NCBI GenBank assembly: GCA_027488375.1
Contig: JAIYBW010000004.1
Span: 310,001-374,000, forward strand
From: Pseudomonadota bacterium
GTDB taxonomy: Bacteria; Bdellovibrionota; Bacteriovoracia; Bacteriovoracales; Bacteriovoracaceae
Direction: 5' to 3'
Length of the DNA stretch: 64,000 bases
Part shown: positions 4,639-57,099 of the stretch, one piece after another
How the letters are laid out: each line of letters opens with the position of its first letter
Position numbering within the stretch: the stretch's first letter is position 1
Program-made: the position numbers and the translations under genes
The notes under the pieces: model-generated
What the model saw: only the letters and a program-made list of their open reading frames with translations
Databases searched by the model: none
What the model was told of the DNA's origin: nothing

Positions 4639-5973
4639 ATGAAAAAAATATTACTCCTCACCCTCTTAGGTTTTAACTTAATAACCTCTATGGCCTTTGC
4701 CCGCCGTAAGGATTTTGTGACCATTAAAAATGGCCATTTCCAAAAAGGAAATCGCTCTTACTTTTTTATGGGGACTAATTTCTGGCAGGGTATGAATCTT
4801 GGGGCCGAAGCTCCTTATGGTGATCGAGCGCAACTTGAGCGTGAACTTGATCACATGAAAAAACTTGGGATCACTCAACTTCGTATCCTGGCCCTAAGTG
4901 AAGGTCCAGGCACAGAGCCTTATCGAATTGTGCCGGCCAACCAAAATAAACCTGGTGTACTGGATGAAAAGCTCCTCAAAGGTTTAGATTATCTTTTACA
5001 TGAAATGAAAAAGCGTCAGATGACGGCCGTCATGGTCTTAAGTAATTTCTGGCCATGGTCTGGTGGCTTTGCTCAATGGGTGAGCTGGAGTGAAGGAAGC
5101 TCAATTCCTTATCCACCTCCTCATCCTGGTGGGAGCTGGGGCACCTTTCAGGAGTACTCTTCAAAATTTTACACTCTTCCATCGGCCGTGAAGGCCCAAC
5201 AGGAAGTGGTGAGAAAAATTATCACCCGCACGAATACTTTTTCTAAAATTAAATACTCTGAAGATCCAACCATTATGTCTTGGCAATTGGCCAATGAGCC
5301 TCGTGGTGGGAAGTACCGTAAAGAATTTTTGGACTGGATCAAGTCCTCAGCGAAGATGATTAAATCCCTGGATAAAAATCACCTTGTCACCATTGGTAGC
5401 GAAGGTGAAACACTTTCAGCAGAAGGTGCAGGCAATCATTTTATTGAAGACCACTCTATTGCAGAGATTGATTACACTACCATCCACATTTGGGTTGAGA
5501 ACTGGGGTGTGTATAATCCGAATGATTCCGCTTCAACTTTAGCGACAGCAAAAACGGTGCTTAAAAACTACATTCAAGATCATGTGAACAAAGCAAAGAT
5601 TTTACGTAAACCTCTGGTGCTTGAAGAATTTGGCATGGCCCGGGATGCACGATCTATGGACCCAGCAAGCTCAACTAAAGACCGCGACAGCTATTATGAA
5701 ACAGCTTTTGCAGAAACTTTGCGCTTCATTCAGCTTGATGGCTCTATTACTGGTGTAAACTTTTGGGCCTGGTCGGGTGAAGGTCGTCCGAGCAAGCCTT
5801 ATGGTGGACTTTGGAAACCAGGTGATAAGTGGATCGGCGATCCTCCTCATGAAGAGCAAGGCTGGTATGGAGTTTATAATACTGATGCCTCTACATTGGA
5901 TGTGATCTCTCGTTACGCGAAAGAGATTTCAAAAACAACCAAACGTAAATTCAAATTCAAAATACAACCATGA
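4639..5973 (+). CDS. Secreted GH5 endo-beta-mannanase-like glycoside hydrolase
   Basis: The 444-aa protein has a signal peptide (MKKILLLTLLGFNLITSMAFA). The core resembles GH5 mannanases: YFFMGTNFWQGMNLG near the start, SWQLANEPRGG with the acid/base Glu at residue 220, HIWVENWG with the conserved His, and LVLEEFGMARD with the nucleophile Glu at residue 330. Family enzymes cut beta-1,4-mannan or glucomannan by a retaining mechanism. The final ATGA overlaps the next gene, an SGNH esterase, so the pair could deacetylate and cleave acetylated mannan outside the cell. Both catalytic Glu residues are intact, so activity is likely; mannan specificity is inferred. Confidence 0.87.
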   Translation: MKKILLLTLLGFNLITSMAFARRKDFVTIKNGHFQKGNRSYFFMGTNFWQGMNLGAEAPYGDRAQLERELDHMKKLGITQLRILALSEGPGTEPYRIVPANQNKPGVLDEKLLKGLDYLLHEMKKRQMTAVMVLSNFWPWSGGFAQWVSWSEGSSIPYPPPHPGGSWGTFQEYSSKFYTLPSAVKAQQEVVRKIITRTNTFSKIKYSEDPTIMSWQLANEPRGGKYRKEFLDWIKSSAKMIKSLDKNHLVTIGSEGETLSAEGAGNHFIEDHSIAEIDYTTIHIWVENWGVYNPNDSASTLATAKTVLKNYIQDHVNKAKILRKPLVLEEFGMARDARSMDPASSTKDRDSYYETAFAETLRFIQLDGSITGVNFWAWSGEGRPSKPYGGLWKPGDKWIGDPPHEEQGWYGVYNTDASTLDVISRYAKEISKTTKRKFKFKIQP

Positions 5974-19702: not shown

Positions 19703-20533
19703 TCACTCAAGATTATTCAAGTGAATTTCATGTTGTTGACAAAGATAATCAACATCAAGTTCGTATTTATTCATGACTTGATGACACAGATCTTTTCTGA
19801 ATTTAAGAAAAGTTACCCCTTGTGACTGATGGTGATAAGTCTGAGTCAGGAAATGGATGGATTCATCAAGACTAAGATCAATTTCTGAAAGAGTAATTTC
19901 TGATAAAAACAATGAACGGTAGATTCTTTCTACCTTTTGAATCAGATCAGGATGCTTAATCGTTTTAAGACCTGAAAAAAGGTAATCGGAAAGATAAGAA
20001 CCTGGTTGGTCATGGGTCCTTAAACAGAGGTTAATTGTGAGTTCATCGTCATGAAGATTTTGGTGAATAAAATCTTCCTGCCATTTTATGGGAACAACAT
20101 CGCCTGGATAAAGGGAATGCTGAGACTTTAAAATAAGATGACCCAGGGAGTGATAATCCCCTAATCTTTTAGTTTCCCTGAATTCATAGCTCCAATCCAA
20201 ATTCTGACCACGCATGCATTGAAAGGCGCCTACAAAATGATGATGATGAATACTAGTAGGTCGTCGACGCCAACAATACATATCTAAAAAACAATGCTCC
20301 CCACTTGCAAGGGTTAATGGGAAATCACTAAATTCAAAATGGGGGTATTTTTGAGAGGTAGAAAAGTTCTTATCTAATGCAAATTTCAAAATAGGCTTCA
20401 AATCAAAATGCTGATGGAGACCAGCACCTTTTAAAAGAGACTCGGCTTTTTGGGGAAAGCCAAGATGTCCATGGTGATTAAGATATTCATCAGCAAGAAA
20501 AACAACCTCTGCTACTTTTTCAAAAAAAATCAC
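19703..20533 (-). CDS. Cysteine-dioxygenase-like cupin protein (third paralogue)
   Basis: The 276-aa protein shares its core with two proteins encoded at 37407-38297 and 38559-39533: FSDFPLTLASGEHCFLDMYCW, then TSIHHHHFVGAFQCMRG, then DFIHQNLHDDELTINLCLRT. TSIHxHxFxGAFK is close to the SSIHDHxxSHCFxK metal motif of cysteine dioxygenases, and the later FIH gives the third His. A thiol-dioxygenase-type 3-His iron cupin is therefore likely; the substrate is unknown. It starts at GTG in a GTGA overlap with the exported protein upstream. No Pro-rich precursor-like gene is visible next to this copy. Confidence 0.65.
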   Translation of the reverse strand: MIFFEKVAEVVFLADEYLNHHGHLGFPQKAESLLKGAGLHQHFDLKPILKFALDKNFSTSQKYPHFEFSDFPLTLASGEHCFLDMYCWRRRPTSIHHHHFVGAFQCMRGQNLDWSYEFRETKRLGDYHSLGHLILKSQHSLYPGDVVPIKWQEDFIHQNLHDDELTINLCLRTHDQPGSYLSDYLFSGLKTIKHPDLIQKVERIYRSLFLSEITLSEIDLSLDESIHFLTQTYHHQSQGVTFLKFRKDLCHQVMNKYELDVDYLCQQHEIHLNNLE

Positions 20534-33374: not shown

Positions 33375-33412
33375 GGGAGTAGGAACATGGAATTTCCTGC
33401 TCCCTATTTTTT
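33375..33412. terminator. Probable bidirectional terminator
   Basis: An 11-bp stem with one G-T wobble (GGGAGTAGGAA against TTCCTGCTCCC) is followed on the plus strand by TATTTTTTC. It lies between converging genes and overlaps the stop of the minus-strand gene ending at 33404, so it could serve both transcripts. Confidence 0.75.
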
Positions 33413-34675
33413 CTTTTTAAGTCTAATTTTTTTTGGTAGTTCAGTTTGAATATTTAAATAATCAGTAGAATCGATTTCAGAAGAAAGTCCTTCACAGAAT
33501 TTCTTAAAGTCATCATCATTTTTAATTTTTTTAATTTGTCGTCTTAGTTTTGCACCGACACCACCACCAGCAATCATGAAACTTTCTTGTTTATCATTAT
33601 ACTCATTATAAAAAAGAGCTGTTCCCATTTCTATTTTGCCCATGAGAGTTGCCTTAAAACCACTTCCATCAGCATAACCGTAAAGTAACATTCCAAAAAG
33701 ATGATACCAAGGCCCAAAGAGATCAAACTCACCGCCTGTATGATTAATAATTTTTTCTAACTTCGTTGAAACAGTCAATTTCTCGCGGTTCGGCCCACCC
33801 AGATAAAAATTTTCGGACAAAACATTTTCAATCGTCAAAAATGCATCATAAACATTGCCCTCAGAAAGTTCATAGGCCTTATGAAACATTTCATGGATGG
33901 ATAATGACCGAGTCTCCTGCTTAAGAATCCAATCACTTAATTTATCCTCATGACCTGTCGGCATAATTCGTCTAGTATCCCCATTAGCAAGGGCCACAAG
34001 TAATTTTGAAAATGGAGGATTGATACGACCTTTTAGAAACTCAGAATTCCATTGGTGAGGCTCACCTACTTTAGGTTTAATCCCTGAGCGACAAATGACT
34101 TTTTGAAACATTTGCTGAAAATCTTTTTTCTTTAGAGGATTAACCTTACTTTCAACCCCTGGAAGGTCCGGCAAGCAGGAAAGACTATCTGGATGATTCT
34201 CTTCATTAAACTTCTCAATTGATTTTAATCCAGCTTCGATCAATTCAAGGCTTTGCTTCCCCTCACCCTTTTTCTGCTCCTCAATGAGTTGATGGAAAAG
34301 ATTATCAATCCTTTTTGCATCGTCTTTATCTAATAATGGGATTCGCTCTTCTTTTTTATTTTCTGTATGCCGCTTAAGTTCAAAATTTTCACCATGAAAG
34401 CACTTTAGGATTTTTTCTTTTTCTTCCAGGCCAATCCTTCGTACACTTTGATTCTCATTCATGACTGAACGATCACCAAAAAGAGCGGGCAACTTTTCGC
34501 TGAATTTCATCTGAAAACTTTTCCATAGTGCGAGATCGGCCATAGGGTCGTTTCGAGCTTCTGAGGCAGTGGTTTCATAGATTAATAGTATTTTTGGATC
34601 TCGACGGATTTCTTCACAATTAATTTGGGAATAAGAATTCTGTAAGAAACAGAGGATTAAAAATAAAATCTTCAT
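33404..34675 (-). CDS. Exported protein of an unknown paralogous pair (second member)
   Basis: The 423-aa protein has a short signal peptide (MKILFLILCFLQNSYSQ). It shares several blocks with the gene immediately upstream: GEPHQWNSEFLKGR against GEIHRWSKEFKSQR; FHKAYELSEGNVYDAFLTIENVLSE against FRKSYQLNQGNIYLSLLTIENVLSE; FGPWYHLFGMLLYGYADG against FGHWYHLFGMIYYAYAEG. The C-terminus is very basic (KKIRLKKKK). The shared YHLFGM core may be the functional part. No catalytic motif is recognised. It overlaps its paralogue by ATGA and may be the last gene of the Pro-rich-peptide gene set. Confidence 0.65.
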   Translation of the reverse strand: MKILFLILCFLQNSYSQINCEEIRRDPKILLIYETTASEARNDPMADLALWKSFQMKFSEKLPALFGDRSVMNENQSVRRIGLEEKEKILKCFHGENFELKRHTENKKEERIPLLDKDDAKRIDNLFHQLIEEQKKGEGKQSLELIEAGLKSIEKFNEENHPDSLSCLPDLPGVESKVNPLKKKDFQQMFQKVICRSGIKPKVGEPHQWNSEFLKGRINPPFSKLLVALANGDTRRIMPTGHEDKLSDWILKQETRSLSIHEMFHKAYELSEGNVYDAFLTIENVLSENFYLGGPNREKLTVSTKLEKIINHTGGEFDLFGPWYHLFGMLLYGYADGSGFKATLMGKIEMGTALFYNEYNDKQESFMIAGGGVGAKLRRQIKKIKNDDDFKKFCEGLSSEIDSTDYLNIQTELPKKIRLKKKK

Positions 34676-35901
34676 TTTTTCCTTAAAATATTTTTAATCT
34701 TTTTTGTTAACCTTTTTTCAAAATCCTCAGGTTGAAATTTTTTGTGAACTTTAATTTCAAAAATCTCACCCTTTTCTCGGGCCAGCATAAATTTTCTCAA
34801 CAGGACTCCGACCTCAGCCCCAAGCATATTCATCCGATTTTCCTGGGCTTCACCTTTAAAGCCTGACAAGACGAGACTCCCTAAGGCCTCCGTCTTACCG
34901 CTTAATTTCGCCATAAAAGCACCCTCTGCGTAGGCGTAGTAAATCATGCCAAAGAGATGGTACCAATGACCAAAGACATCTCCATGAGAACCAAAGAGTT
35001 TTCCAATAGGTTTTAATTTATTAGTCTGCTTCAGTTGGTGACGCTTTGGATGTAGCCAATACTCGGAGAGGACATTTTCGATCGTGAGCAAGGATAGATA
35101 GATGTTTCCTTGATTGAGTTGATAACTTTTTCTAAAAAGTTCTTTTGGAACTAGACTTAAATCATCTTGATCTAAAATGAATTGTCTTAATTCTTCTTCA
35201 GGCCCAGCCTTCAGAAGAGCAGCACTTTTGCCCCCTGACAAAACGGTCAAAATTTTTGAAGGGATTGACTTAAAATGTTCTTTAAAACCAGACCTCTGGG
35301 ATTTGAATTCCTTTGACCAACGATGAATCTCACCAAAACGAGGAGTAACCCCTTTTTTTTCTTCTTCTAAAATCACATTAAAAAGTTTCTGGCCTAAATC
35401 TTTTGCATCAAAAGGATCTTTTCTTCCTTCAATGACAATTTCACTTTTATCAAAAAGATTGAGGACTTTTTTCTTATCCACATCACTAAACTCACTTAAG
35501 ACTTCTATAAGAAGTTTACGATCATTTTCAAAGGCTTCACTCTGAGTATATAAATGAGAGTGCCCAAGATCAGGCAAGATATCAGGCCCAAACTTAAATA
35601 AATCCGAGGCACATTCTTTTGCCGCATTAAGTTTACTTTTATCAAGAGGTTTAATTTTTAATTTTAAAAGAGACCTTAGGGCGTCATTGAAATTTGACGA
35701 AGAGACTTTCACGAGGGCCATATCACCAATTGGATCTTCAAGCTTAAAAGATTTTTGACGATAAAAACTCAAGACTTCAGGAGGAATTTCTGAGGGGCGC
35801 TCAATAATCCCCTGATCAATATTTTTGAATTGGTCACATTGTGCACTTGCCTCATGGGACAAGGCCATAACAGCAATTATTATAGCTATAGAAGGCTTCA
35901 A
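34672..35901 (-). CDS. Exported protein of an unknown paralogous pair (first member)
   Basis: The 409-aa protein starts at TTG 35901 with a strong GGGGGAGG site 4 nt upstream and a signal peptide (KPSIAIIIAVMALSHEASAQ). It is related to the downstream product over most of its length (see blocks WHxLFGM and NVLSE). Its C-terminus is basic (KKIKNILRKK). The start is 85 nt downstream of the 2OG-oxygenase-like gene on the same strand, with no clear terminator between, so co-transcription with that cluster is possible. Function unknown. Confidence 0.65.
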   Translation of the reverse strand: MKPSIAIIIAVMALSHEASAQCDQFKNIDQGIIERPSEIPPEVLSFYRQKSFKLEDPIGDMALVKVSSSNFNDALRSLLKLKIKPLDKSKLNAAKECASDLFKFGPDILPDLGHSHLYTQSEAFENDRKLLIEVLSEFSDVDKKKVLNLFDKSEIVIEGRKDPFDAKDLGQKLFNVILEEEKKGVTPRFGEIHRWSKEFKSQRSGFKEHFKSIPSKILTVLSGGKSAALLKAGPEEELRQFILDQDDLSLVPKELFRKSYQLNQGNIYLSLLTIENVLSEYWLHPKRHQLKQTNKLKPIGKLFGSHGDVFGHWYHLFGMIYYAYAEGAFMAKLSGKTEALGSLVLSGFKGEAQENRMNMLGAEVGVLLRKFMLAREKGEIFEIKVHKKFQPEDFEKRLTKKIKNILRKK

Positions 35902-35986
35902 TGCACCTCCCCCTTGGAAAGATTAGAACTAGGGTCTTATCGGTAAAACGGGAGAAAACCTGAGTAAAACAATTCACCAGATAGGA

Positions 35987-36484
35987 TCAGTTTAAATCAC
36001 CTTCAAAATCAGGGTCAACAAAGTGGAAAAACGCTAATGAAACGTAGTTATCTGGTTGAATTTTATTGCGGTAGTGAGGATGCTCAATGCCTGAGTAAAA
36101 GAGGGCCTCATTGGGTTGCAGGATATATTCAACGTTATTAATAAAGATGGGCCAAGGGTTTATTTGATCCAAACATAGATCAATCGAATAACGGCATTGG
36201 GGCCTGTCGGTGTGTAGGGGGCAGATTCCTATTCCTTTATTATACATACTCAAAAAAGAGTAACTTATTTTAAGCTCAGTCTTAAATTTCTCTTGGGCCA
36301 GTGGAAGAAGTTTTTTATGCATAACTTTCAAGAAACTTGGATTATGCAAGTAATAGCGATAAAACATATCATTATCAAAAGACATCAGTTGATTTCGACT
36401 TTTCCAAAATCTATTAATACAGCTTAAAGTATAGTTAAAATCTTCTTCCGCTAAAATATGACTTAATTTTAAAACAGGAATCAT
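35987..36484 (-). CDS. Small 2OG-Fe(II)-oxygenase-like protein
   Basis: The 165-aa protein has the pattern of a compact 2-oxoglutarate/Fe(II) hydroxylase: YSFLSMYNKGIGICPLHTDRPQCRYSIDLCL contains the H-x-D metal pair, and LFYSGIEHPHYRNKIQ the distal His followed by a basic residue that could bind 2OG. Length is small but similar to minimal Asp/prolyl-hydroxylase-like proteins. It follows the JmjC-like gene by 2 nt on the same strand. Within this gene set it could hydroxylate the Pro-rich peptide. The substrate is inferred only. Confidence 0.6.
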   Translation of the reverse strand: MIPVLKLSHILAEEDFNYTLSCINRFWKSRNQLMSFDNDMFYRYYLHNPSFLKVMHKKLLPLAQEKFKTELKISYSFLSMYNKGIGICPLHTDRPQCRYSIDLCLDQINPWPIFINNVEYILQPNEALFYSGIEHPHYRNKIQPDNYVSLAFFHFVDPDFEGDLN

Positions 36485-36486
36485 AT

Positions 36487-37404
36487 CTATCCCTTCTTTG
36501 AACGGATGATGTTATAAGCATCAGAATTTTTCAAAAAAGATTTTAAAACTTCTTGATGTTTAAATTTCTCAGTAAATATTTTCAATTTCGACTCAAAGGT
36601 TTTTAAATCATGTTCAAAAGATTCAAGATGATCTCTCAATTCATAAGGGCTTTGATTGTCAAAAAGCTCCTTCCTTAAAAGCATATTAAGATAATTATTA
36701 AGCTGCATCTTAAAATTTCTAGTAATTCCCAAAACGATATGAACTGATGGTTCGTTTCCAACTTGCTCCACAAAATGAGTCATCTGGAAAGGCACAAACA
36801 AGACATCGCCAGGACTAACAGTAAACTCAGTAAACTTTTGGTCCGAGTCGAGAGGATCATAAGGGATACCAGGTTCCACTGGACAATAAGGCTTTCCTTC
36901 AGGATCAAGGGCAAACTTCCAACGTTTAGTGCCGTAAAGTTGGATCGCAAATAAATCCATGGGATCACTATGGTGACCAAATGAAGAAACAGGCACATTA
37001 TGAGAAAGAACCATGTAGGACTGGCCACCAAAAGGTGTGTATTTAAAAAGATCAAGACTCAATGTTTTTAGCTCAGGCCAGAATTCAAAAATATTTTGAA
37101 AATGAATTGAGGAGTCATTTTTTGTTATTGCTCTCCACAGATCAGCTCCATGAAAGGGAGCAATCATTTGATAGAAAGACTCTTCTTGAACGCCATGGGG
37201 AACAAGAGGGAAAAACTGACCTTGATATGTCCGAGATAAAGAATTCTTATGAGCAGGATTCTTAATATAATCTTCTAATTTCTCCAAGGGGATAATCCAC
37301 TCAGGCCTAAACGATTGAGAAAAAAATTTAAGTGTCCCAGGTAACAATAATTCTGGGACAAATTGAGAAGGATCCATGCCGCCTAAAATATCTTTTAAAC
37401 GCAT
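36487..37404 (-). CDS. JmjC/cupin_8-family oxygenase
   Basis: The 305-aa protein resembles ribosomal-oxygenase-type JmjC proteins (RoxA/MINA53): MRLKDILGGMDPSQFVPELLLPG start, SSFGHHSDPMDLFAIQLYGTKRWKF with the H-x-D pair, and SPGDVLFVPFQMTHFVEQVG with the distal His. The facial triad is complete. Known family members hydroxylate Arg or His side chains of proteins, and others act on peptides. A helical C-terminal tail (about 70 residues) is present. It sits 2 nt after one CDO-like cupin and 2 nt before the small oxygenase, so it is part of the same transcript. Confidence 0.8.
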   Translation of the reverse strand: MRLKDILGGMDPSQFVPELLLPGTLKFFSQSFRPEWIIPLEKLEDYIKNPAHKNSLSRTYQGQFFPLVPHGVQEESFYQMIAPFHGADLWRAITKNDSSIHFQNIFEFWPELKTLSLDLFKYTPFGGQSYMVLSHNVPVSSFGHHSDPMDLFAIQLYGTKRWKFALDPEGKPYCPVEPGIPYDPLDSDQKFTEFTVSPGDVLFVPFQMTHFVEQVGNEPSVHIVLGITRNFKMQLNNYLNMLLRKELFDNQSPYELRDHLESFEHDLKTFESKLKIFTEKFKHQEVLKSFLKNSDAYNIIRSKKG

Positions 37405-37406
37405 TT

Positions 37407-38297
37407 TTATGCCCTTGTGACGTACTTTAAAAATAATAATTTATGAATCATTTTCTGCTCATTGTTTACTGAACTTAACATCAATTCATAGTCAGATGCT
37501 AAAGGAGATTTTAAAGCATAGTCTTTGATCATTTTATGAACTGGTTCAGAGACAAATAACCTCATCCTCTGAAGACATGCCGCCATTTCAACCACAGTAA
37601 ACTGATCTAAAATAGGATAAATGAGTTTCTCTACAAAACTCTGATCTTGATCATCTTGATGGAAAACGAGAATGGAATCAAAAAAATCAAGTGTCTTTAT
37701 CATTCTTGGATGATCATAGTTAAATTTCAAACGTAAACCTGATGACCAATAAGAATATAAATTATCTTTAAGATCTGGGGTCCTTAAAATAAAAGTCACC
37801 GTGGGAAAATCTAAATGGATCACCCGATGAATAAATTTTTCACCTAATTGGATTTCTTGAACATCACCTTGATTAAGATAGCGGGTGCTGATCTTGGTTA
37901 AAGTCCCCACATCCACCAGTGGAGAAACATTTCTCCCTTCTTCAAAATGATAAGTCACTTGAAGTGACTGACCTGCGAGGAGCTTAAAAGCACCACAGAA
38001 ATGGTGATCATGTATGGAGGTTTCATTATTATTCCAGACATAAATATCTAGGTGAAACTTCTCATGCTGAAAAAGGGTAAAAGGCAATTCTCCAAACTCA
38101 TCCCTTGCAAAACTTTGACGAGGAAGCGGGCCAAGGGAATCGAGGTAGTCTTGAAATTCAAGATGATTGAAATTCCAGTCGAAAGTCCTTAAAAGTTCGG
38201 TGGCCAAGGATGGAAAATCTTGAACATTAAAATTGGGATCATTGACCCTTGATTCAACTCTTTCGATGAGATTTTTTATTTCTAACTGAAGTGTCAT
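37407..38297 (-). CDS. Cysteine-dioxygenase-like cupin protein (first paralogue)
   Basis: The 296-aa protein starts at ATG 38297, one base after the stop of the Pro-rich peptide gene; an open frame continuing upstream is only the antisense-like reading of that gene. Core: GELPFTLFQHEKFHLDIYVW, TSIHDHHFCGAFKLLAGQS, then KFIHRVIHLDFPTVTFILRT. SIHDH...FK...G and the later FIHRV match the three metal His of cysteine dioxygenase, so a 3-His iron thiol-dioxygenase-like centre is likely. Because the neighbouring peptide has no Cys, it probably acts on something other than a peptide thiol, or the reaction differs. It is homologous to the products of 38559-39533 and 19703-20533. Confidence 0.7.
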   Translation of the reverse strand: MTLQLEIKNLIERVESRVNDPNFNVQDFPSLATELLRTFDWNFNHLEFQDYLDSLGPLPRQSFARDEFGELPFTLFQHEKFHLDIYVWNNNETSIHDHHFCGAFKLLAGQSLQVTYHFEEGRNVSPLVDVGTLTKISTRYLNQGDVQEIQLGEKFIHRVIHLDFPTVTFILRTPDLKDNLYSYWSSGLRLKFNYDHPRMIKTLDFFDSILVFHQDDQDQSFVEKLIYPILDQFTVVEMAACLQRMRLFVSEPVHKMIKDYALKSPLASDYELMLSSVNNEQKMIHKLLFLKYVTRA

Positions 38298-38298
38298 C

Positions 38299-38562
38299 TC
38301 AATACATAGGTGCCGGTCTAAAGGGACCAGGAGCACTAGAACCAGGACCAGGACCATTAGGACCAGGACTACCAGGACCAGGAGAAGGAGCGACCATCAC
38401 AGGTAGTGTGGGACCTAAAGGATAGCCTAGGGGCATTCTTCCAGGACTTGGTGCAGCGATAATAGAAAAAACACCCGCAGTATCATCTTCAGAAAGCTCA
38501 ATTTTTTTAAGCTCACCAAAAAAATAATCCTGCTCTTGAATTAATTTTGAATTATCACTCAC
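38299..38562 (-). CDS. Candidate RiPP precursor: Pro/Gly-rich 87-aa peptide
   Basis: The 87-aa protein starts at GTG 38562, overlapping the upstream cupin stop by GTGA; the following cupin starts one base after its stop. It has no signal peptide and no Cys. Residues 1-37 are acidic and amphipathic (YFFGELKKIELSEDD) with no Pro: a leader-like region. Residues 38-87 hold 17 Pro and 10 Gly, with APSPG twice (37-41 and 58-62) and a Pro-Gly run near residues 59-74, ending in PAPMY. A sharp leader/core boundary beside a PqqD-like protein and several oxygenases suggests a modified peptide. Alternatives: a Pro-rich scaffold or linker protein. No processing protease or exporter gene is visible nearby. 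Confidence 0.65.
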   Translation of the reverse strand: MSDNSKLIQEQDYFFGELKKIELSEDDTAGVFSIIAAPSPGRMPLGYPLGPTLPVMVAPSPGPGSPGPNGPGPGSSAPGPFRPAPMY

Positions 38563-39533
38563 AGTACCTTCCCCATTAATGAACTCATTTCATTAATATA
38601 ATTTAAATGCTTCACACGTTCTTGGCACACATCATTATACCAATGAAAGCGCTTTAAGTCTTGCGAAAAAAGCCTTTCTAGAGCTTCCTCGAACTTAGAG
38701 CTAGGATATAAAGGCTTATAATTATAAGACATTAAAAAAAGATCTTTAGCCGACAGCTGCTCAAATGTCTTTTCCAGCAGTAGCTGACAATTTTTTGAGT
38801 CAGAATCGTAGTGAAACTGGAAATAACTCGAAACTAAGGACATTTTTTTATAAGCATCCTCATGAGGTCGAACATCAACCCATGCGTACCCAGGATAGAT
38901 ATAATCAAAAAAATCACGAACTCGATTTGATTTGACGATAAGAGTAACAGAGGGCCTATCAAGATGCAGAACTTGATGAATATAGGAGTGCCCTAAAGTT
39001 ACTTTCTGGACATGATTTTTTTGAATCACTTCATCATTTCTAACCACAAGCTCCCCTTTAAGAAGCCAACTCTCTAACTCTTTCACATGGTTAAAATCGT
39101 ACTCTAAATGCCTCGAAGACCCATGCAGGATCTTAAAAGCCCCTACAAAAGGATGATCATGAATAGAGGTATGGGCATGAAGCCACACAAAAAGATCAAT
39201 ACTGAAATGCTCGTTTTTAACCAGAGTAAATGGCAGATCAGCAAACACCCCTCGGGAGTGATTCTGACTTCTAAAAGGCATATCAAATAATGATTCTTGA
39301 AGGAGAAGCATGGGATCTGGAAAATGAGTTTCTTTAAGAAGCTCTGCAGAAAGATCTGGAAAAAGACCTAGATCAAAGCCCTTCTGGGACCACGCATTTA
39401 ATAAATTTTCTTCGAATTTTTTGATTATGCTCACCTCATCATCGTATAATGAAGGCGTAGGAAAATAAACAGCTGAAATCGGAGAATTTGTGTCAGGCCA
39501 GAATTTTAACTTTAAAGTCAGTGAGGAAGTCAT
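38559..39533 (-). CDS. Cysteine-dioxygenase-like cupin protein (second paralogue)
   Basis: The protein is 324 aa from ATG 39533 or 291 aa from GTG 39434. The shorter start fits the N-terminus of its paralogue better and leaves a 55-nt divergent gap to the PqqD-like gene, whereas the longer one overlaps that gene's start. Core: ADLPFTLVKNEHFSIDLFVW, TSIHDHPFVGAFKILHG, then SYIHQVLHLDRPSVTLIVKS, giving the three cysteine-dioxygenase-type metal His. It ends in a GTGA overlap with the Pro-rich peptide gene, so translation of enzyme and peptide is coupled. Confidence 0.7.
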   Translation of the reverse strand: MTSSLTLKLKFWPDTNSPISAVYFPTPSLYDDEVSIIKKFEENLLNAWSQKGFDLGLFPDLSAELLKETHFPDPMLLLQESLFDMPFRSQNHSRGVFADLPFTLVKNEHFSIDLFVWLHAHTSIHDHPFVGAFKILHGSSRHLEYDFNHVKELESWLLKGELVVRNDEVIQKNHVQKVTLGHSYIHQVLHLDRPSVTLIVKSNRVRDFFDYIYPGYAWVDVRPHEDAYKKMSLVSSYFQFHYDSDSKNCQLLLEKTFEQLSAKDLFLMSYNYKPLYPSSKFEEALERLFSQDLKRFHWYNDVCQERVKHLNYINEMSSLMGKVL

Positions 39534-39786
39534 ATTTAAAACAAACTTAGAAGGAACAGAGATCTTTATTGTTTTCCTAAATGAAGATAATCACTATTTT
39601 AAAATTAATGGTCTCGCTGCAAAAATCTGGAAGATGATTGACGAGAAAGGTGCCGAAAAAATAAGTTCTGTAACTCTTTACCAAGAATGCCTAGAAAAAC
39701 TTAAGCCAAATCATGATAAGTTTGAAAATGATTTCAATAACTTCATCAATCAACTTAAAGAAGAAAAAATTATTTTCTTAGAATAA
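39490..39786 (+). CDS. PqqD-like protein (RiPP recognition element)
   Basis: The 98-aa protein starts at GTG 39490 with GGAG 5 nt upstream. It has the PqqD pattern: an N-terminal strand region (FNFKVSEEVIFKTNLEGTEIFIVFLN), then HYFKINGLAAKIWKMIDEKG, where NGLAAKIW is the typical yxLNxxAaxIW core, and a helical end (FENDFNNFINQLKEEKIIFLE). PqqD-type domains bind leader peptides of RiPPs and present the core to modifying enzymes. It is the only plus-strand gene in the cluster, divergent from a cupin and convergent with (17-nt overlap) an unknown gene. Confidence 0.75.
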   Translation: MSGQNFNFKVSEEVIFKTNLEGTEIFIVFLNEDNHYFKINGLAAKIWKMIDEKGAEKISSVTLYQECLEKLKPNHDKFENDFNNFINQLKEEKIIFLE

Positions 39787-40657
39787 ACTCTTTCTCAAAA
39801 AGTTCACGATATCTTTTAAGACACATTGGTTCTCTAAAAAAAAGATCATGGGAACTATTCCAGATTCTTAAAAAATCTTTAAAAGTATCTCCGAAGTCCC
39901 GGGGAGGCATGAATGAAATATGAACTTCGTGAAAAAGAGATAGATCATATATTTCATCTACGCTCATAGAGATTAAAGGTGTCATCACTTGAGCATTTTT
40001 TGACATCAAGGCATGAATTAAAAAATGATCATAAACGACGAAGGGCTCAATTGGAAAAAAGACATAATGTCCTTTAAGATCAATCCTTGAAAGTAAATCC
40101 TCAAGGGGAACAGATCTAGCTTTAAAATCAAAAGAGTCAATGTGATCCTGTGAATAAAAATGAGGTAGATTTAAATTCACTTTCGAAAAATCTTGAAAAT
40201 CATTATCTTGAACTAGCCCCTCGATTTTATTTAATTGTCTCGTATTTCCAAATCCGTAATCTAAATCAGGTAATGGGAAAATTGTCAAAAATTGACTAGG
40301 ACCAGATTTTTTTAATTTGAACTGATAAAAATAAATATGTTCTCTCCAAGATTTTGGGACCACAGAAGCTAGATAGGCCGGGACACCGATAAAAGTTCGA
40401 AAGTTCTTTGGAGGGAGTGGGAAACGAGAAAAAAAACAGCCTAAACCTAAAAAGCCATCTCGAAAAGAAACAACCTTGTACTGTGACAAGACTGAAAGAT
40501 CATCAATACAGATTGAAAACATTGGGTTTAGAAGAGAAAAATAATCATCTGATAAAATCCCTACCTGCTCAGAAAAACCCTGAAAGCTTCTAAAAAGAGG
40601 CGCCCGATGAGAGATGAAGTCCTTAGTTAAATTAAAATCAAATAAATCACTCAGCAT
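39770..40657 (-). CDS. Unknown protein linked to a glycosyltransferase
   Basis: The 295-aa product starts at ATG 40657, overlapping the glycosyltransferase stop by 11 nt; a start further upstream would overlap more. It is rich in Phe and Asp (FSICIDDLSVLSQYKVVSFRDGFLGLGCFF, LDLKGHYVFFPIEPFVVYDHFLIHALMSKNAQV). PEPFVVYDHFLIHALMSKNAQVMTP resembles the donor-binding end of GT-B-like folds but I cannot confirm it. Translation coupling to the GT4 gene suggests a joint function. Not recognised. Confidence 0.6.
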   Translation of the reverse strand: MLSDLFDFNLTKDFISHRAPLFRSFQGFSEQVGILSDDYFSLLNPMFSICIDDLSVLSQYKVVSFRDGFLGLGCFFSRFPLPPKNFRTFIGVPAYLASVVPKSWREHIYFYQFKLKKSGPSQFLTIFPLPDLDYGFGNTRQLNKIEGLVQDNDFQDFSKVNLNLPHFYSQDHIDSFDFKARSVPLEDLLSRIDLKGHYVFFPIEPFVVYDHFLIHALMSKNAQVMTPLISMSVDEIYDLSLFHEVHISFMPPRDFGDTFKDFLRIWNSSHDLFFREPMCLKRYRELFEKEFILRK

Positions 40658-41891
40658 AATTTTTAAAAACCTCAAGTGAGTATTTGTCATTTTCTGAAGC
40701 TCTCACTTTGAGCATCAAATCATGTGAATTAGTTAAAACTTGAGGGATACTAGGCTTACAGACCAAGAAATAACTCATGTATAAGTCTGCAATATGTTTT
40801 TGATTAAGGACTGAATGGTAAATTTTAGATTCATAATTTGAAACTGTTTCTAAAAGAACTTTTTTGAAATCATCAAATCTCAATTCAAAGCCAGAGGATG
40901 AAGGCACCAAATCAATCAGACTAACTCTTTCGGGATAAAGATTTTTAAAAGATGAATGCCCCCCCCATCTAGTTAAGATGGCATAGAGACCTGATTCTAA
41001 AGCCTCAGCAGCGGCCAGACCAAAATCTTCATGACTAAAAGTACTTAAAGAAATAAAAATATCACAGATTCCAAATTCTTGAGCTAATTCTTGTGTTGAA
41101 AGTGAACCCAAAAACTGAACGTGATTTTCAAAAAAATCAGCCCCCACTTCCCTTTTTAGAGCATAAAAAATTTCATGAAAATAAGTTCCAAGAGGGGCAG
41201 AGGAATCAGAAAATGGAAGGTAGAGGTCATCAAAATGGCCAATAAGTTTTAGCTTAAAATCCTTGCCTAGAACGTTTTCATCTTTAGCTTTTGCAAAAAA
41301 CTTTATCAAAGAATAAATGTTTTTCTGATGAGAAAGCCTACCGGCAAAAACAAAAATTAATTCATTTCCATTTTTCCTATGACTACGATTGTTTTGATGA
41401 AAAACAGATGAGTCCACAGGGAATGGTATGACATGAATGTCAGCTAAAAAAAACTGCTCCAATAATTTCTTCTGGGCATCAGAGGCAACAATAAGACTCA
41501 TTTCATTTTGATTAGATATTAAAAAAGTGTGCCACTTGATAAAATCCTTTAGAAAATTTCCATAAACAACCACACTCAACTTTATATTATTTAAGCTTGA
41601 GATGCTGAAAAATTTTTCAAAAAAATTTGAAGGGTGATGGTAAGGATCTAAATATACAAGATGTTCAAAATGAGAAGATTGATGGGAATTTAGTATTGAG
41701 CTCATGAATTCTTGTGTGGTCTCTCCACTAAATCTAAAAAACTCAAATTCAAGTTTGTCATTTAAAGAATGAAACACCGAAATCAAATTATTAAGAATAT
41801 TTTGACAACTCGGCCAGTACCCATCCTCTAAGGGTAAAATAACTGCTATTTTTCTCTTGGAGGAGAGGAACCCATTCACCAAACTAGACAT
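40647..41891 (-). CDS. GT4-family glycosyltransferase
   Basis: The 414-aa protein is a GT-B fold glycosyltransferase: N-terminal acceptor domain, then PFPVDSSVF, FVFAGRLSHQKNIYSLIKFF (donor-domain start), and DIFISLSTFSHEDFGLAAAEALESGLYAILTRWGGHSS with the E(x7)E-type sugar-nucleotide motif (EDFGLAAAEALE). The motif is intact. The family transfers sugars from nucleotide donors with retention. It lies at the head of the minus-strand genes of the Pro-rich-peptide region, separated from them only by the plus-strand PqqD-like gene, so it could glycosylate the peptide after hydroxylation. That link is inferred from position. Confidence 0.85.
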   Translation of the reverse strand: MSSLVNGFLSSKRKIAVILPLEDGYWPSCQNILNNLISVFHSLNDKLEFEFFRFSGETTQEFMSSILNSHQSSHFEHLVYLDPYHHPSNFFEKFFSISSLNNIKLSVVVYGNFLKDFIKWHTFLISNQNEMSLIVASDAQKKLLEQFFLADIHVIPFPVDSSVFHQNNRSHRKNGNELIFVFAGRLSHQKNIYSLIKFFAKAKDENVLGKDFKLKLIGHFDDLYLPFSDSSAPLGTYFHEIFYALKREVGADFFENHVQFLGSLSTQELAQEFGICDIFISLSTFSHEDFGLAAAEALESGLYAILTRWGGHSSFKNLYPERVSLIDLVPSSSGFELRFDDFKKVLLETVSNYESKIYHSVLNQKHIADLYMSYFLVCKPSIPQVLTNSHDLMLKVRASENDKYSLEVFKNYAE

Positions 41892-41975
41892 AATATAAAT
41901 AATTTACATCAAAATACTCAAAAGCTTTCAAGAAAATCACTAAAAAGCCGAAAAAATCATAAAAAAGAGGATCTC

Positions 41976-43064
41976 ATGACAACGAGTCAGAAAAGAATTG
42001 TTTTAGTTGATGATATGACTACAAATCATTTGATTTTTAAATCTCAGCTTAAAAATTGCAATTACCAAATTGATGCCTTTAAAGAACCACTCCAATTTTT
42101 AAAAGAATTAGAGCAGATACCTATGCCCGATCTGTTTGTTTTTGATATTGAAATGCCAGAGCTTAATGGTCTTGAACTCGCTAAGATCATTAAGGAAAAA
42201 TCTCATTATAAGAATATCCCTATCATTTTTTTCACGTCTCTAGATGATGAAGAGATGATGACTAAAGCCTATAACTCAGGTGCTGTCGAATTCATCTCAA
42301 AATTAATGAAGGGAACAGAATTAAGATTGAGAATCGAAAACATCCTCCACTTGGAAGAATTAAAGAAAAAGACGATCAGTTTAAACGAAGAATTAACAAA
42401 AAAACTAAAAATTAATCAGATCCTTTTTAGAGTCCTATTCCACGATCTGGCGAACCTCATTTCAATTATTGATGCCAACACCACCCTCGCCCAGGCCGTT
42501 CTTGAAAATCATCCGGCCATGAAGAGAATTGAGAAAACGGCAAAATCAGTTCACAACCTAAAGGAAATACTAACCTCCATTCGAAGCCTCACTGATGCTT
42601 CACCAGAGGTTCAGAGTTGCTCTGTTTCAGATTCATTCCAAATTCTAGAATTCCTTTTCACAGAAAGACTTAATCAAAAGAAATTAAAGCTTGAATACGT
42701 TTGTGATGAGCATTTGAAAGTCAATGTCCCAAAATCATTTCTCGTGCATCAAGTCTTGGCGAATTTCTTAACCAATGCCATCAAATTCTCTCCCGAAGGT
42801 GGCCTAATCAAATTATGGGCGCAAAAAGATCAGTCTGGAGTGGTCATTAATATTAATGATGCTGGGCCTGGTATAAGTGACGACGTTAAAGTTAAAATTC
42901 TTAGTGAAGACCAATTCTACACCACAGAAGGAACCGAGCAAGAAAAAGGCACTGGATCAGGAATTAAGATAGCCCAGTTTTTCATTCAAAAATACCATGG
43001 AAGCCTTGAGATACAGCAAGGTGAAACCCAAGGTGCAGTCATTAAAATTAGATTTAATGACTAA
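41976..43064 (+). CDS. Receiver-histidine kinase hybrid
   Basis: The 362-aa cytoplasmic protein starts with an intact receiver domain (IVLVDDMTTNHLIF, phosphoacceptor in LFVFDIEMPELNG, Lys in FISKLMKG). A HisKA-like helix (RVLFHDLANLISIIDANT, candidate phospho-His in FHDLAN) and an ATPase domain (QVLANFLTNAIKFSP, NDAGPGIS, GTGSGIKIAQFF) follow. This N-terminal REC then kinase order suggests that input phosphorylation controls kinase output. No partner is encoded alongside. GAGG precedes the ATG. Confidence 0.87.
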   Translation: MTTSQKRIVLVDDMTTNHLIFKSQLKNCNYQIDAFKEPLQFLKELEQIPMPDLFVFDIEMPELNGLELAKIIKEKSHYKNIPIIFFTSLDDEEMMTKAYNSGAVEFISKLMKGTELRLRIENILHLEELKKKTISLNEELTKKLKINQILFRVLFHDLANLISIIDANTTLAQAVLENHPAMKRIEKTAKSVHNLKEILTSIRSLTDASPEVQSCSVSDSFQILEFLFTERLNQKKLKLEYVCDEHLKVNVPKSFLVHQVLANFLTNAIKFSPEGGLIKLWAQKDQSGVVININDAGPGISDDVKVKILSEDQFYTTEGTEQEKGTGSGIKIAQFFIQKYHGSLEIQQGETQGAVIKIRFND

Positions 43065-46471: not shown

Positions 46472-46508
46472 TTGACTAATACATAGTATTATGTAATACT
46501 ATGTATTA
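46472..46508 (+). promoter_or_regulatory. Operator palindrome and promoter of HigBA-like module
   Basis: A perfect 15-bp inverted repeat with a 2-bp centre covers 46477-46508 (left arm TAATACATAGTATTA). A TTGACT -35 at 46472-46477 and a TAATAC -10 at 46494-46499 are spaced by 16 bp, so the dyad covers the core promoter. The right arm ends on the A of the toxin start codon, and no ribosome-binding site fits, so the transcript is probably leaderless. This fits autorepression by the HTH antitoxin. Confidence 0.7.
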
Positions 46509-46846
46509 TGATCAGGACTTTTAAAGAGACCCCCACATTTACAAAAAAAGTTGAGTTAATAGGAAGTCCAGAACTTTTAAAATCCATTCAAGAAGCCATT
46601 ATGGAGAATCCAATTATTGGAGACACTATCGCAGGCACTGGAGGGTTGAAAAAATTTCGAATGCCTGACGCTTCACGAGGTAAAGGAAAGCGAGGCGGAC
46701 TTAGAGTCATATATTTGGATTTACCGGATAAAGAAACCACTTACCTACTTTTCATATATGGAAAAGATGAAGCCGATGATTTAACTGCTACCGAAAAGAA
46801 AATTTTTAAAGAATTGGTTAGCAGGATCAAGGGAGAGAACAAATGA
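46508..46846 (+). CDS. HigB/RelE-type toxin
   Basis: The 112-aa protein resembles HigB2/RelE mRNA interferases: FTKKVELIG start, then GDTIAGTGGLKKFRMPDASRGKGKRGGLRVIYLDL, then YLLFIYGKDEADDLTATEKK. The GTGGLKKFR and GGLRVIY motifs are characteristic, with basic residues for RNA binding. Toxins of this family cut mRNA on the ribosome. Its stop overlaps the antitoxin start by ATGA, the toxin-first order typical of higBA. Likely stabilises the element. Confidence 0.87.
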   Translation: MIRTFKETPTFTKKVELIGSPELLKSIQEAIMENPIIGDTIAGTGGLKKFRMPDASRGKGKRGGLRVIYLDLPDKETTYLLFIYGKDEADDLTATEKKIFKELVSRIKGENK

Positions 46847-47160
46847 AAAAGAAACGTATTGCGGATGAATTATTGCAAAGCCTTGAAGAAGCTGTTGCCA
46901 TGGAAAAAGGCGAACTTAAAGGTCGTGAGACAACTCGAAAACTTTCAAGACCCGCGCCTAAATGGTCCAAGAAAGAAATTAAAAAGCTGCGTGAAGAAGT
47001 CTTTCATATGAGCCAACCTCTTTTTGCATCACTTCTTAACGTAAAGCCGGCAACAATCCGTGCCTGGGAACAAGGGCAAAGAACCCCTGATGGAGCAGCA
47101 GCAAGGCTCCTAGAAGTTCTTTCTAGAGAAACTCATATTGCGGATGATTTAGCCTCATAA
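46843..47160 (+). CDS. HigA-type antitoxin
   Basis: The 105-aa protein has a C-terminal Xre-type helix-turn-helix (MSQPLFASLLNVKPATIRAWEQGQRTPDGAAARLLEVL) following a helical N-terminus that would bind the toxin. It is coupled to the toxin gene by a 4-nt overlap. It should neutralise HigB and repress the palindromic promoter in front of the pair. Confidence 0.87.
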   Translation: MKKKRIADELLQSLEEAVAMEKGELKGRETTRKLSRPAPKWSKKEIKKLREEVFHMSQPLFASLLNVKPATIRAWEQGQRTPDGAAARLLEVLSRETHIADDLAS

Positions 47161-55731: not shown

Positions 55732-55947
55732 ATGAGTAAGCCTCAATGTATGCAATGTAAGTACTTCTATGTGACCTGGGATCCAAAGATTCCAAATGGT
55801 TGCAAACGTTTTGGAATCCAGTGCCGGGATTTGCCTTCAAAGGTTGTGGCCCAAGCAGGAATGGGTGAATGCGCTGGATTTGAGGCCAAAAAAAAGACTG
55901 AACAAAAAAGCGACAAGTTGGACTTAAACCGAAAGGACCTCTGGTAA
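55732..55947 (+). CDS. Small Cys-rich, likely zinc-binding protein
   Basis: The 71-aa protein has CMQCKYFYVTW, GCKRFGIQC and MGECAGF, giving a Cys pattern that could bind a metal. The pattern resembles short CxxC...C zinc-ribbon-like proteins, but no family is certain. The C-terminus is Lys-rich. It converges with mnmA and overlaps its 3' end by 24 nt. Confidence 0.65.
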   Translation: MSKPQCMQCKYFYVTWDPKIPNGCKRFGIQCRDLPSKVVAQAGMGECAGFEAKKKTEQKSDKLDLNRKDLW

Positions 55948-57099
55948 GGCCTTACCGAGTTCATGATAACTTGGACTCACCTCTGTGATGATCCCGCCTC
56001 CTAAGCAAAGATCCCCTAGATAAAATACTATAGACTGACGAAGTGTGATCGCCCTTTGAGGTCGATCAAAGATCACACTGACCTTATCCCCTTCTATTTT
56101 AACTCTGCAATCCTGCTCCGGCTGGCGGTAGCGAACCTTGGCCTTACACGGAAATTCATGACCTGGAAGATTTGTAAGCCAATTAAGCTCTCTCGCCACT
56201 AGTCCATCTGCATAGAGGGCCGGATGGTCATCGCCTTGAGCGAGAATCACTTCATGGCGCTCTAGATTTTTTCCCACCACAAACCATGGCTCCCCAGGAC
56301 CACCAATCCCCATACCTTTACGCTGCCCCAGAGTATAGAAACAAACACCATCATGCTGACCTAGGATTTTGCCTTGAAGATCTACAAAGTTTCCTTTCTG
56401 AGATTCAATATAATGCGAGAGAAAACTCTTAAAATTTCTCTCTCCAATAAAACAAATGCCCGTCGAATCTTTTTTGGTTTTAGTGGCAAGGTCAAATAAA
56501 TTGGCCAGCTCCCTCACCTTCGGTTTTGGTAAATGCCCAATCGGGAATAAGACATGCTGGAAAACATTCTTATCAACGGCATAGAGAAAATAAGTTTGAT
56601 CTTTATTCTGATCAATGGCCTTGGCGAGTTTTGAATCTTGAAGTTGACAGTAATGTCCCGTGGCCAAGAAATCGGCCCCCAAGAGTCTTGCCCGCTGATA
56701 AAAAACTTTAAATTTTATTTCACGGTTACAGAGGATATCCGGATTAGGGGTATGCCCTTGACGATAATCTTCTAAAAATTCAGCAAAGACTCCATCCCAA
56801 TACTCTTTAACAAAATTAACTGAGTAATAAGGAATATCTAATCTTTCACAAACTTTAATCACATCTTGATAATCAAGATCTGCGGTACAGCGACCATCAG
56901 GCAGAGTCTCATCCCAATTTTTCATGAATAGACCCACCACCTTATAGCCCTGAAGCTTAACCAAAAGGGCCGTGACAGAAGAATCCACTCCACCCGACAT
57001 CCCCACCACCACTGTTTTAGTGGCGTTTTCGAGGTACTGCTCATGGGAAAGCTCAATACCAAAAGATTTAAGGAGGTCTGGATTATAATCAAAATTCAT
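55924..57099 (-). CDS. mnmA: tRNA-specific 2-thiouridylase MnmA
   Basis: The 391-aa enzyme thiolates U34 of tRNA Lys/Glu/Gln. It has the PP-loop VVGMSGGVDSS (about 31-41), then LFMKNWD, the catalytic ILCNREIKF Cys, the second Cys in STGICFIGERNF, and the C-terminal FYTLGQRKGMGIGG and ARELNW...CKAKVRYRQP domains. Length and motif set are complete. An N-terminal extension of about 28 residues precedes the PP-loop, and I see no clear ribosome-binding site. A diverged paralogue lies two genes upstream on the same strand. Confidence 0.95.
   Translation of the reverse strand: MNFDYNPDLLKSFGIELSHEQYLENATKTVVVGMSGGVDSSVTALLVKLQGYKVVGLFMKNWDETLPDGRCTADLDYQDVIKVCERLDIPYYSVNFVKEYWDGVFAEFLEDYRQGHTPNPDILCNREIKFKVFYQRARLLGADFLATGHYCQLQDSKLAKAIDQNKDQTYFLYAVDKNVFQHVLFPIGHLPKPKVRELANLFDLATKTKKDSTGICFIGERNFKSFLSHYIESQKGNFVDLQGKILGQHDGVCFYTLGQRKGMGIGGPGEPWFVVGKNLERHEVILAQGDDHPALYADGLVARELNWLTNLPGHEFPCKAKVRYRQPEQDCRVKIEGDKVSVIFDRPQRAITLRQSIVFYLGDLCLGGGIITEVSPSYHELGKALPEVLSV

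Follow-up and report, generated by a model that had tools for sequence, protein, structure and literature searches.

A candidate RiPP-like gene cluster with a proline-rich peptide in the Bacteriovoracaceae

Gene content of the cluster

The window analysed here is a stretch of 64,000 nucleotides from a genome of the family Bacteriovoracaceae (Bdellovibrionota; assembly GCA_027488375.1, contig JAIYBW010000004.1, positions 310,001 to 374,000), which we refer to as G000; window positions count from its first letter. Eight genes lying between 35987 and 41891 probably form a system of a new group, resembling those that make ribosomally synthesized and post-translationally modified peptides (RiPPs). 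Five of them make up a tight minus-strand run, in the order cupin 1 (38559..39533, 324 aa), candidate precursor peptide (38299..38562, 87 aa, GTG start), cupin 2 (37407..38297, 296 aa), JmjC_2 (ROX-type) oxygenase (36487..37404, 305 aa) and a small protein resembling 2-oxoglutarate (2OG)-Fe(II) oxygenases (35987..36484, 165 aa). Cupin 1 and the peptide gene overlap by 4 nt, the remaining gaps measure 1-2 nt, and the GTG start is preceded by GGGGAAGG, 4 nt upstream. On the plus strand, a gene for a PqqD-type RiPP recognition element (RRE; 39490..39786, 98 aa) overlaps the genes on both sides. Back on the minus strand follow a 306-aa protein (39770..40690), whose relatives usually lie directly downstream of a GT4 gene, and a GT4-type glycosyltransferase (40647..41891, 414 aa). 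An earlier, sequence-only reading of this DNA had listed the same genes, and our re-check of the open reading frames (ORFs) found its content, coordinates and spacing correct throughout; a 316-aa ORF for cupin 2 arises only because the frame runs on mechanically into the gene of the peptide.

Within the peptide, a leader of residues 1-33 (38464..38562, minus strand) carries YFFGEL at 38509-38526 and ends in GVFS, and a Cys-free core rich in Pro and Gly spans residues 34-87 (38302..38463, minus strand). A recount agreed with the composition reported earlier, with no Pro in residues 1-37 and 17 in the 50 residues from 38 to 87.

Three of the eight proteins match Pfam families: JmjC_2 (PF08007, 1.5e-13), Glycos_transf_1 (PF00534, 2.1e-17) and PqqD (PF05402, 7.1e-8), the last with 33.1 bits against a cut-off of 23.4, so that a leader-recognition domain is encoded in the cluster. 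Searches up to E 1 gave no Pfam match for either cupin, the small oxygenase, the peptide or the 306-aa protein. The JmjC protein carries an HxD pattern, and the solved structures that it matches best are those of ribosomal-protein L16 arginine hydroxylases (4nub, 4.8e-8). The two cupins owe their label to an HxH...H pattern that is invariant across 12 aligned sequences; they match no named family significantly in Pfam or in profile comparison with solved structures, where the solved cysteine dioxygenase 4qma gave E 0.8, below significance. Cupin 2 is thus cysteine-dioxygenase-like on motif alone. The earlier reading had called both cupins cysteine-dioxygenase-like; action on Cys of the peptide is ruled out, as the peptide contains none. 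A third cupin-family protein is encoded at 19703-20533 of the window, with relatives across the genus that stand alone where inspected.

The label of the small oxygenase rests on HxD...HxR, invariant across 10 aligned sequences. Its comparison with phages matched 35 records, and among the 20 listed two are annotated as 2OG-Fe(II) oxygenase (2e-8 and 6e-10), the others listed being hypothetical, ferrochelatase, gp54 or unannotated. Among its relatives, the one in locus L186 matches a Pfam 2OG model, though under the cut-off (E 4e-4), and those in L038, L184 and L190 have no such match. The small-oxygenase profile finds matches in 17 of 368 genomes of the phylum (E <= 1e-5).

Probable exchange between genomes and divergence of the peptide

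A sister copy of the cluster is present in a second Bacteriovoracaceae genome, G011. When the window was compared with 14.2 kb of a G011 contig (L032), positions 35708..42164 were the only stretch to align, at 96.0% identity over 6459 bp (blastn, E <= 1e-10), whereas identity between the genomes is 73% for a control gene at 55924-57099, read as the housekeeping-type mnmA. G011 keeps all eight genes in unchanged order and orientation. Close copies were found in G011 only (58 genomes searched, G000 included), at 98% identity for cupin 1, 73% for the peptide and 92% for the 306-aa protein; in other genomes cupin 1 reaches at most 36%. Recent transfer of the block is the simplest reading of these sequence comparisons, with one control gene as its basis, and mis-binning of the sister contig may be an alternative.

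We take the eight genes as a unit because a 409-aa flanking gene is out of frame in the sister and the neighbours on the GT4 side differ. Independent occurrence of peptide homologues would have spoken against the system, yet none was found without the neighbours, and the single close copy retains all seven. Outside the unit, positions 33404-34675 and 34672-35901 encode paralogous proteins with apparent signal peptides and no Pfam match; the first has HEMFH, an HExxH pattern, the second lacks HExxH, and the sister copy of the second does not keep frame.

The peptide has diverged far faster than its neighbours. It differs from its sister at 22 of 85 aligned residues, mostly past residue 33, and by a two-codon in-frame indel, compared with 25 of 1189 residues for the PqqD-type protein, both cupins, the JmjC protein and the small oxygenase together (counting cupin 2 with one codon before its ATG), 23 of 295 for the 306-aa protein and 30 of 414 for the GT4 (Fisher p 3.5e-15 against the five proteins, 2.8e-11 against all seven). 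The sister copy of the 306-aa protein begins 11 residues later, so the true start of the window gene may be internal. In the core, non-synonymous divergence (dN) is 0.280 and synonymous divergence (dS) 0.146, with 18 non-synonymous and 5 synonymous codon differences; in the leader the corresponding values are 0.066 and 0.110, with 4 and 1. The seven other genes have dN of 0.005-0.034. The leader thus also changes faster than the enzymes, and the contrast between leader and core is one of degree. The core values suggest positive selection, with small numbers from one sequence pair. Over the two copies compared, the peptide is a short leader-core gene with a slower leader and a faster core, and conservation of gene order and of the reading frame in the second genome despite the indel makes it more than a chance alignment of genes. 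Two arginines, Arg 42 and Arg 82, are unchanged between the copies; by analogy, the JmjC protein might act on them.

A leader motif shared with other loci

Short peptides with a YxFG-type leader occur at ten loci in nine genomes (the window, L033, L038, L051, L267, L184, L214, L201, L151 and L229), that is, at nine loci beyond the window, of which L033 is the sister copy. Two of these were met through the cupin search. L038, in G011, combines a peptide (5527-5697) with a GT2, a YcaO protein (6.1e-12), a small oxygenase, a cupin and a PqqD-like protein, and L051, in G020, a peptide (1612-1782) with a TylF-type methyltransferase, JmjC_2, a GT4, a 305-aa protein, a PqqD-like protein and two cupins, of which one is truncated where the contig ends. 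The peptides of the window, L038 and L051 have Y[FYI]FG[EG][LI] in common. L267, from another genus, holds PqqD, JmjC_2, GT4, a cupin and two leader peptides, one with FKD replacing FGE. Tandem precursor-like peptides also occur: two Cys-rich ones beside GT2 and PqqD at L214 (4371-4894) and two short ones at L184 (3603-3963). PqqD itself was found in 68 of 129 genomes of the family (E <= 0.001), 65 of them above the cut-off.

Matches to the motif were counted among short ORFs. At distances of up to 5 kb from PqqD, 23 of 5541 matched (the window peptide is one of the 23, some are duplicates and two or more look like chance matches), compared with 7 of 2352 farther away in the same loci and 5 of 5063 in loci lacking PqqD, and the near-PqqD set gave 1.95 matches on average when shuffled. 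The window leader fits both the YxFG-type motif and the boundary [VIA][FY][AGS].

A leader model was built from the leaders of 19 S74 proteins (described below), with no window-type peptide among them, and run on 14,338 ORFs from loci that overlap in part. Directly below the S74 rows it ranked peptides from L051, L198/L267 (one gene present twice in the ORF set), L038, L229 and L184 (E 0.015-0.057), then one unrelated ORF (0.11) and the sister peptide (0.18); mixed with unrelated ORFs, there followed the two tandem peptides of L214, the window peptide (3.2), and L201 and L151 (2.7-9.7). When the window and sister peptides were excluded from an 18-row leader alignment, they ranked 33 and 32 of 14,338 (E 0.59 and 0.097), and a model from nine short-peptide leaders only gave E 0.069 and 0.015. 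The rows outranking them in both runs were training rows, S74 proteins, L229 or the second tandem peptide of L184.

A glycosyltransferase appears to be a regular companion of these peptides. In the window it lies 861 bp from PqqD, and a GT4 or GT2 was found within 3 kb of PqqD in all ten leader-peptide loci against 15 of 61 other PqqD loci (5 kb), a comparison biased in favour of the ten by queries that were drawn from these very clusters. The remaining enzymes vary, with JmjC_2, cupins, small oxygenases, YcaO, DUF4135, radical SAM proteins (L229 and L201) and a methyltransferase each found in some loci, and so the glycosyltransferase looks more central than the sequence-only reading had supposed. 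The DUF4135 proteins, which are LanM-dehydratase-like, scored 31.0 bits in L151 (2e-7; cut-off 29) and, slightly under the cut-off, 28.3 bits in L201 (1.3e-6). YcaO and LanM dehydratases are established RiPP enzymes, and the presence of such proteins in leader loci argues that the leader marks RiPP precursors.

The same kind of leader is found on a larger protein. In many of these genomes a protein of about 150 aa near PqqD carries a YxFGG leader at its N-terminus, together with YLDVFAG and an S74 domain (PF13884, 9.3e-17 in L139). S74 (endosialidase chaperone) domains self-cleave, and cleavage would release a leader-bearing piece. The 18-row leader profile matched 46 of the 368 phylum genomes (E <= 0.05), and we fetched ten matched places, none chosen for PqqD. 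Seven of them have E < 1e-8: L305 and L306 hold a neighbouring PqqD gene, L307, L308 and L309 combine leader, S74 and a PqqD-like domain in one ORF, and L310 and L311 yielded no PqqD; nor was any found at the three weak places, L312-L314. Pfam confirms both S74 and PqqD in L307 and L309 and S74 only in L308, where PqqD was recognised by an in-house model. The fusions are the best evidence for PqqD and leader working together, and they concern the S74 branch. Leader-S74 proteins beside or fused to PqqD lie at L305 8965-9755, L306 9364-10158, L307 9239-10039, L309 9366-10130 and L139 7549-8413.

Among the short called genes of the loci scanned, at least 11 Pro in 35 residues were found only in the sister peptide and at one other locus, L188 (G017, same genus; also counted as L080). 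Its 78-aa peptide, with 16 Pro in 35 residues, stands between a member of the 306-aa-protein family and a protein of 815 aa; the latter has a GT2 domain at its N-terminus and, at its C-terminus, a match to the profile of the small oxygenase (E 1.6e-7). Pfam also confirms two 2OG-Fe(II) oxygenases at this locus. L188 is an analogue, and it independently links a Pro-rich core with 2OG oxygenases and a glycosyltransferase, one such pair in a single protein. The neighbours of the window peptide do occur apart in part: cupins stand alone in nine inspected loci, small oxygenases are found without PqqD (e.g., L176-L178 and L180), and so are pairs of GT4 and the 306-aa protein.

Proposed pathway and alternative explanations

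We consider it likely that the eight genes make up a self-contained pathway of RiPP type and pass from one species to another together. At the level of the system, the RiPP-like character proposed by the sequence-only reading holds, with a leader-core peptide, a PqqD-type protein, oxygenases and a glycosyltransferase all in place, and the combination again matched no class that we could name; the chemistry is what we infer. Homology, co-occurrence and the gene fusions in relatives suggest that the PqqD-type protein would bind the YFFGEL leader (residues 1-33) and present the peptide. Oxidation of core residues 34-87 would then fall to the JmjC protein, the small oxygenase of 2OG type and both cupins, most likely as Pro hydroxylation and perhaps also at Arg or elsewhere. 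The resulting core hydroxyls may be glycosylated by the GT4, probably helped by the 306-aa protein. A peptidase would cut near VFS|IIAAP, and a system outside the cluster would export the product. A role in competition or predation is our guess.

Several points weigh against this pathway, besides the query bias in the glycosyltransferase comparison. A single close copy of the cluster was found, and co-conservation therefore covers a short time only. The window leader itself does not match significantly: it scored E 3.2 in the S74-leader model, below a few unrelated ORFs, and E 0.59 and 0.069 when left out, and the left-out model is not fully independent, with L214, L201, L151 and L184 picked by motif and context from weak hits (E 0.057-9.7). 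The PqqD-like proteins of L038 (18.4 bits) and L051 (14 bits) fall under the Pfam cut-off. Part of the co-occurrence stems from locus selection, as five of the ten leader loci had been chosen for PqqD, three for a cupin and one for the oxygenase, and one was given. Most leader-bearing proteins are S74 proteins, several of them in loci resembling glycan clusters. L188 is without a YxFG leader, and its stretch, which ends at the contig end, showed no PqqD. As already reported from the sequence, no leader protease or exporter is visible: Pfam recognised none among the eight genes, and a genome-wide search, which covered C39 only, found one C39 peptidase domain in G000, which is no consistent partner because it has no match in G011.

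Some of these observations would suit a glycoconjugate branch, in which a leader-bearing protein of S74 type receives a glycan made by the PqqD-type protein, the GT4 and the 306-aa protein, and the window peptide is a Pro-rich primer or anchor for a glycan instead of a small secreted product. YxFG-leader S74 proteins do lie by PqqD in loci with genes read as an ABC-2 transporter, a twitch-type radical SAM protein (in L135, its Pfam score is slightly under the cut-off), a nucleotidyltransferase and a carbamoyltransferase, and the GT4 and 306-aa-protein families co-occur with S74 and PqqD in L305 and L306. We nevertheless think this explanation unlikely, since no transporter, nucleotidyltransferase or polymerase was recognised in the exchanged unit, short leader precursors adjoin YcaO and LanM-dehydratase-like proteins, and variation as fast as that of the peptide is not expected of a primer. 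The kinship of the JmjC protein with ribosomal-protein hydroxylases, together with the nine loci of stand-alone cupin homologues, would fit enzymes that modify a cellular target (e.g., a ribosomal protein, like ROX-type JmjC enzymes), leaving the Pro-rich ORF incidental or structural. There is little to recommend this, however, when the peptide gene overlaps cupin 1, keeps its frame and most of its leader, evolves unlike its neighbours and has similar leaders beside other enzyme sets.

The least probable explanation, to which we give hardly any credence, is that the cluster belongs, in diverged form, to one of the named classes (lasso, lanthipeptide, glycocin or YcaO-type). The best NCBIfam match of the PqqD-type protein is indeed a lasso-type PqqD model, at 19.8 bits far below its 80-bit cut-off, and related loci hold YcaO or DUF4135. 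One YcaO also lies about 360 kb away in G000, outside the cluster, with a counterpart in G011. Yet no class enzyme was recognised among the eight genes with Pfam and NCBIfam, and the peptide is Cys-free. The eight genes, to which the lasso search was confined, gave no match for an asparagine-synthetase-like cyclase or a transglutaminase-like protease; lanthipeptide features are lacking, with no Cys in the peptide and no Lan enzyme among the eight genes; and YcaO is absent from them (Pfam), though present in the related L038. Glycocins are glycosylated ribosomal peptides in which Cys is S-glycosylated by a GT2, and whereas they need a Cys acceptor and a GT2, the window glycosyltransferase matches PF00534 (GT4-type).

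Literature searches found no description of a cluster like this one. Plant hydroxyproline-rich glycopeptides share with this system a backbone rich in Pro, Ser and Gly and the suggested order of hydroxylation followed by O-glycosylation. They are products of the eukaryotic secretory pathway, made by other enzymes and without PqqD. Another likeness is to RRE-dependent RiPPs with a discrete PqqD-type protein (PF05402), which likewise have a stand-alone PqqD beside a leader-core peptide and modifying enzymes. The text of section 7 of PMC12710340 names the leader motifs YxxP, Lx4F, HIxxI, FxLD and W/Y/LxxP/L/I (its figure has 13), and the YxFG-type leader differs from those named there. The passages on predicted RiPP clusters in PMC7470986 and PMC12710340 describe RRE-glycosyltransferase fusions (PF00535 is named in the latter), in which a recognition domain is likewise tied to a glycosyltransferase; there the two are fused, whereas here PqqD is a discrete protein, accompanied by a GT4 or GT2, candidate precursors and further enzymes.

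Beyond the RiPP-type pathway of the window, we put forward only tentatively, and with more doubt than confidence, a new RiPP class centred in Bdellovibrionota, in which a YxFG leader is read by PqqD, a glycosyltransferase forms part of the core set and Pro-rich peptides are hydroxylated and then O-glycosylated, like the hydroxyproline-rich glycopeptides of plants; the leader-PqqD pair would also serve S74 proteins, whose S74 domain may release a modified N-terminal piece. If true, this would add an oxidised, glycosylated Pro-rich peptide type to the RiPPs and provide a leader motif by which precursors could be found in a phylum known for its predatory bacteria, and the natural PqqD-leader fusions would make leader recognition directly testable.

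Other precursor-like genes were met near PqqD. A PqqD-linked peptide family has a nearly fixed C-terminus, CNG..GGRK.....FCN..KLNS (L116 10859-11032, L122 4966-5151, L128 10990-11175, L193 8145-8327 and others; 14 members, of which L149 and L155 are doubtful), and a precursor-like pair by PqqD and GT4 (L150 8694-8873 and L179 6922-7107) has the common front KQKTL and differing ends. At L140 (7992-10582), PqqD, YcaO-like (3e-9) and JmjC-like (8e-6) genes lie side by side with no motif peptide. An unannotated region of a Hyphomicrobiales plasmid (L190 8608-14762, CP131057.1) encodes a small oxygenase with an extra N-terminal region and PqqD, along with genes read as asparagine synthetase, sulfotransferase and HprK-like. 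In the window itself, adjacent short genes at 46508-47160 resemble, by eye, a HigB/HigA-type toxin-antitoxin pair.

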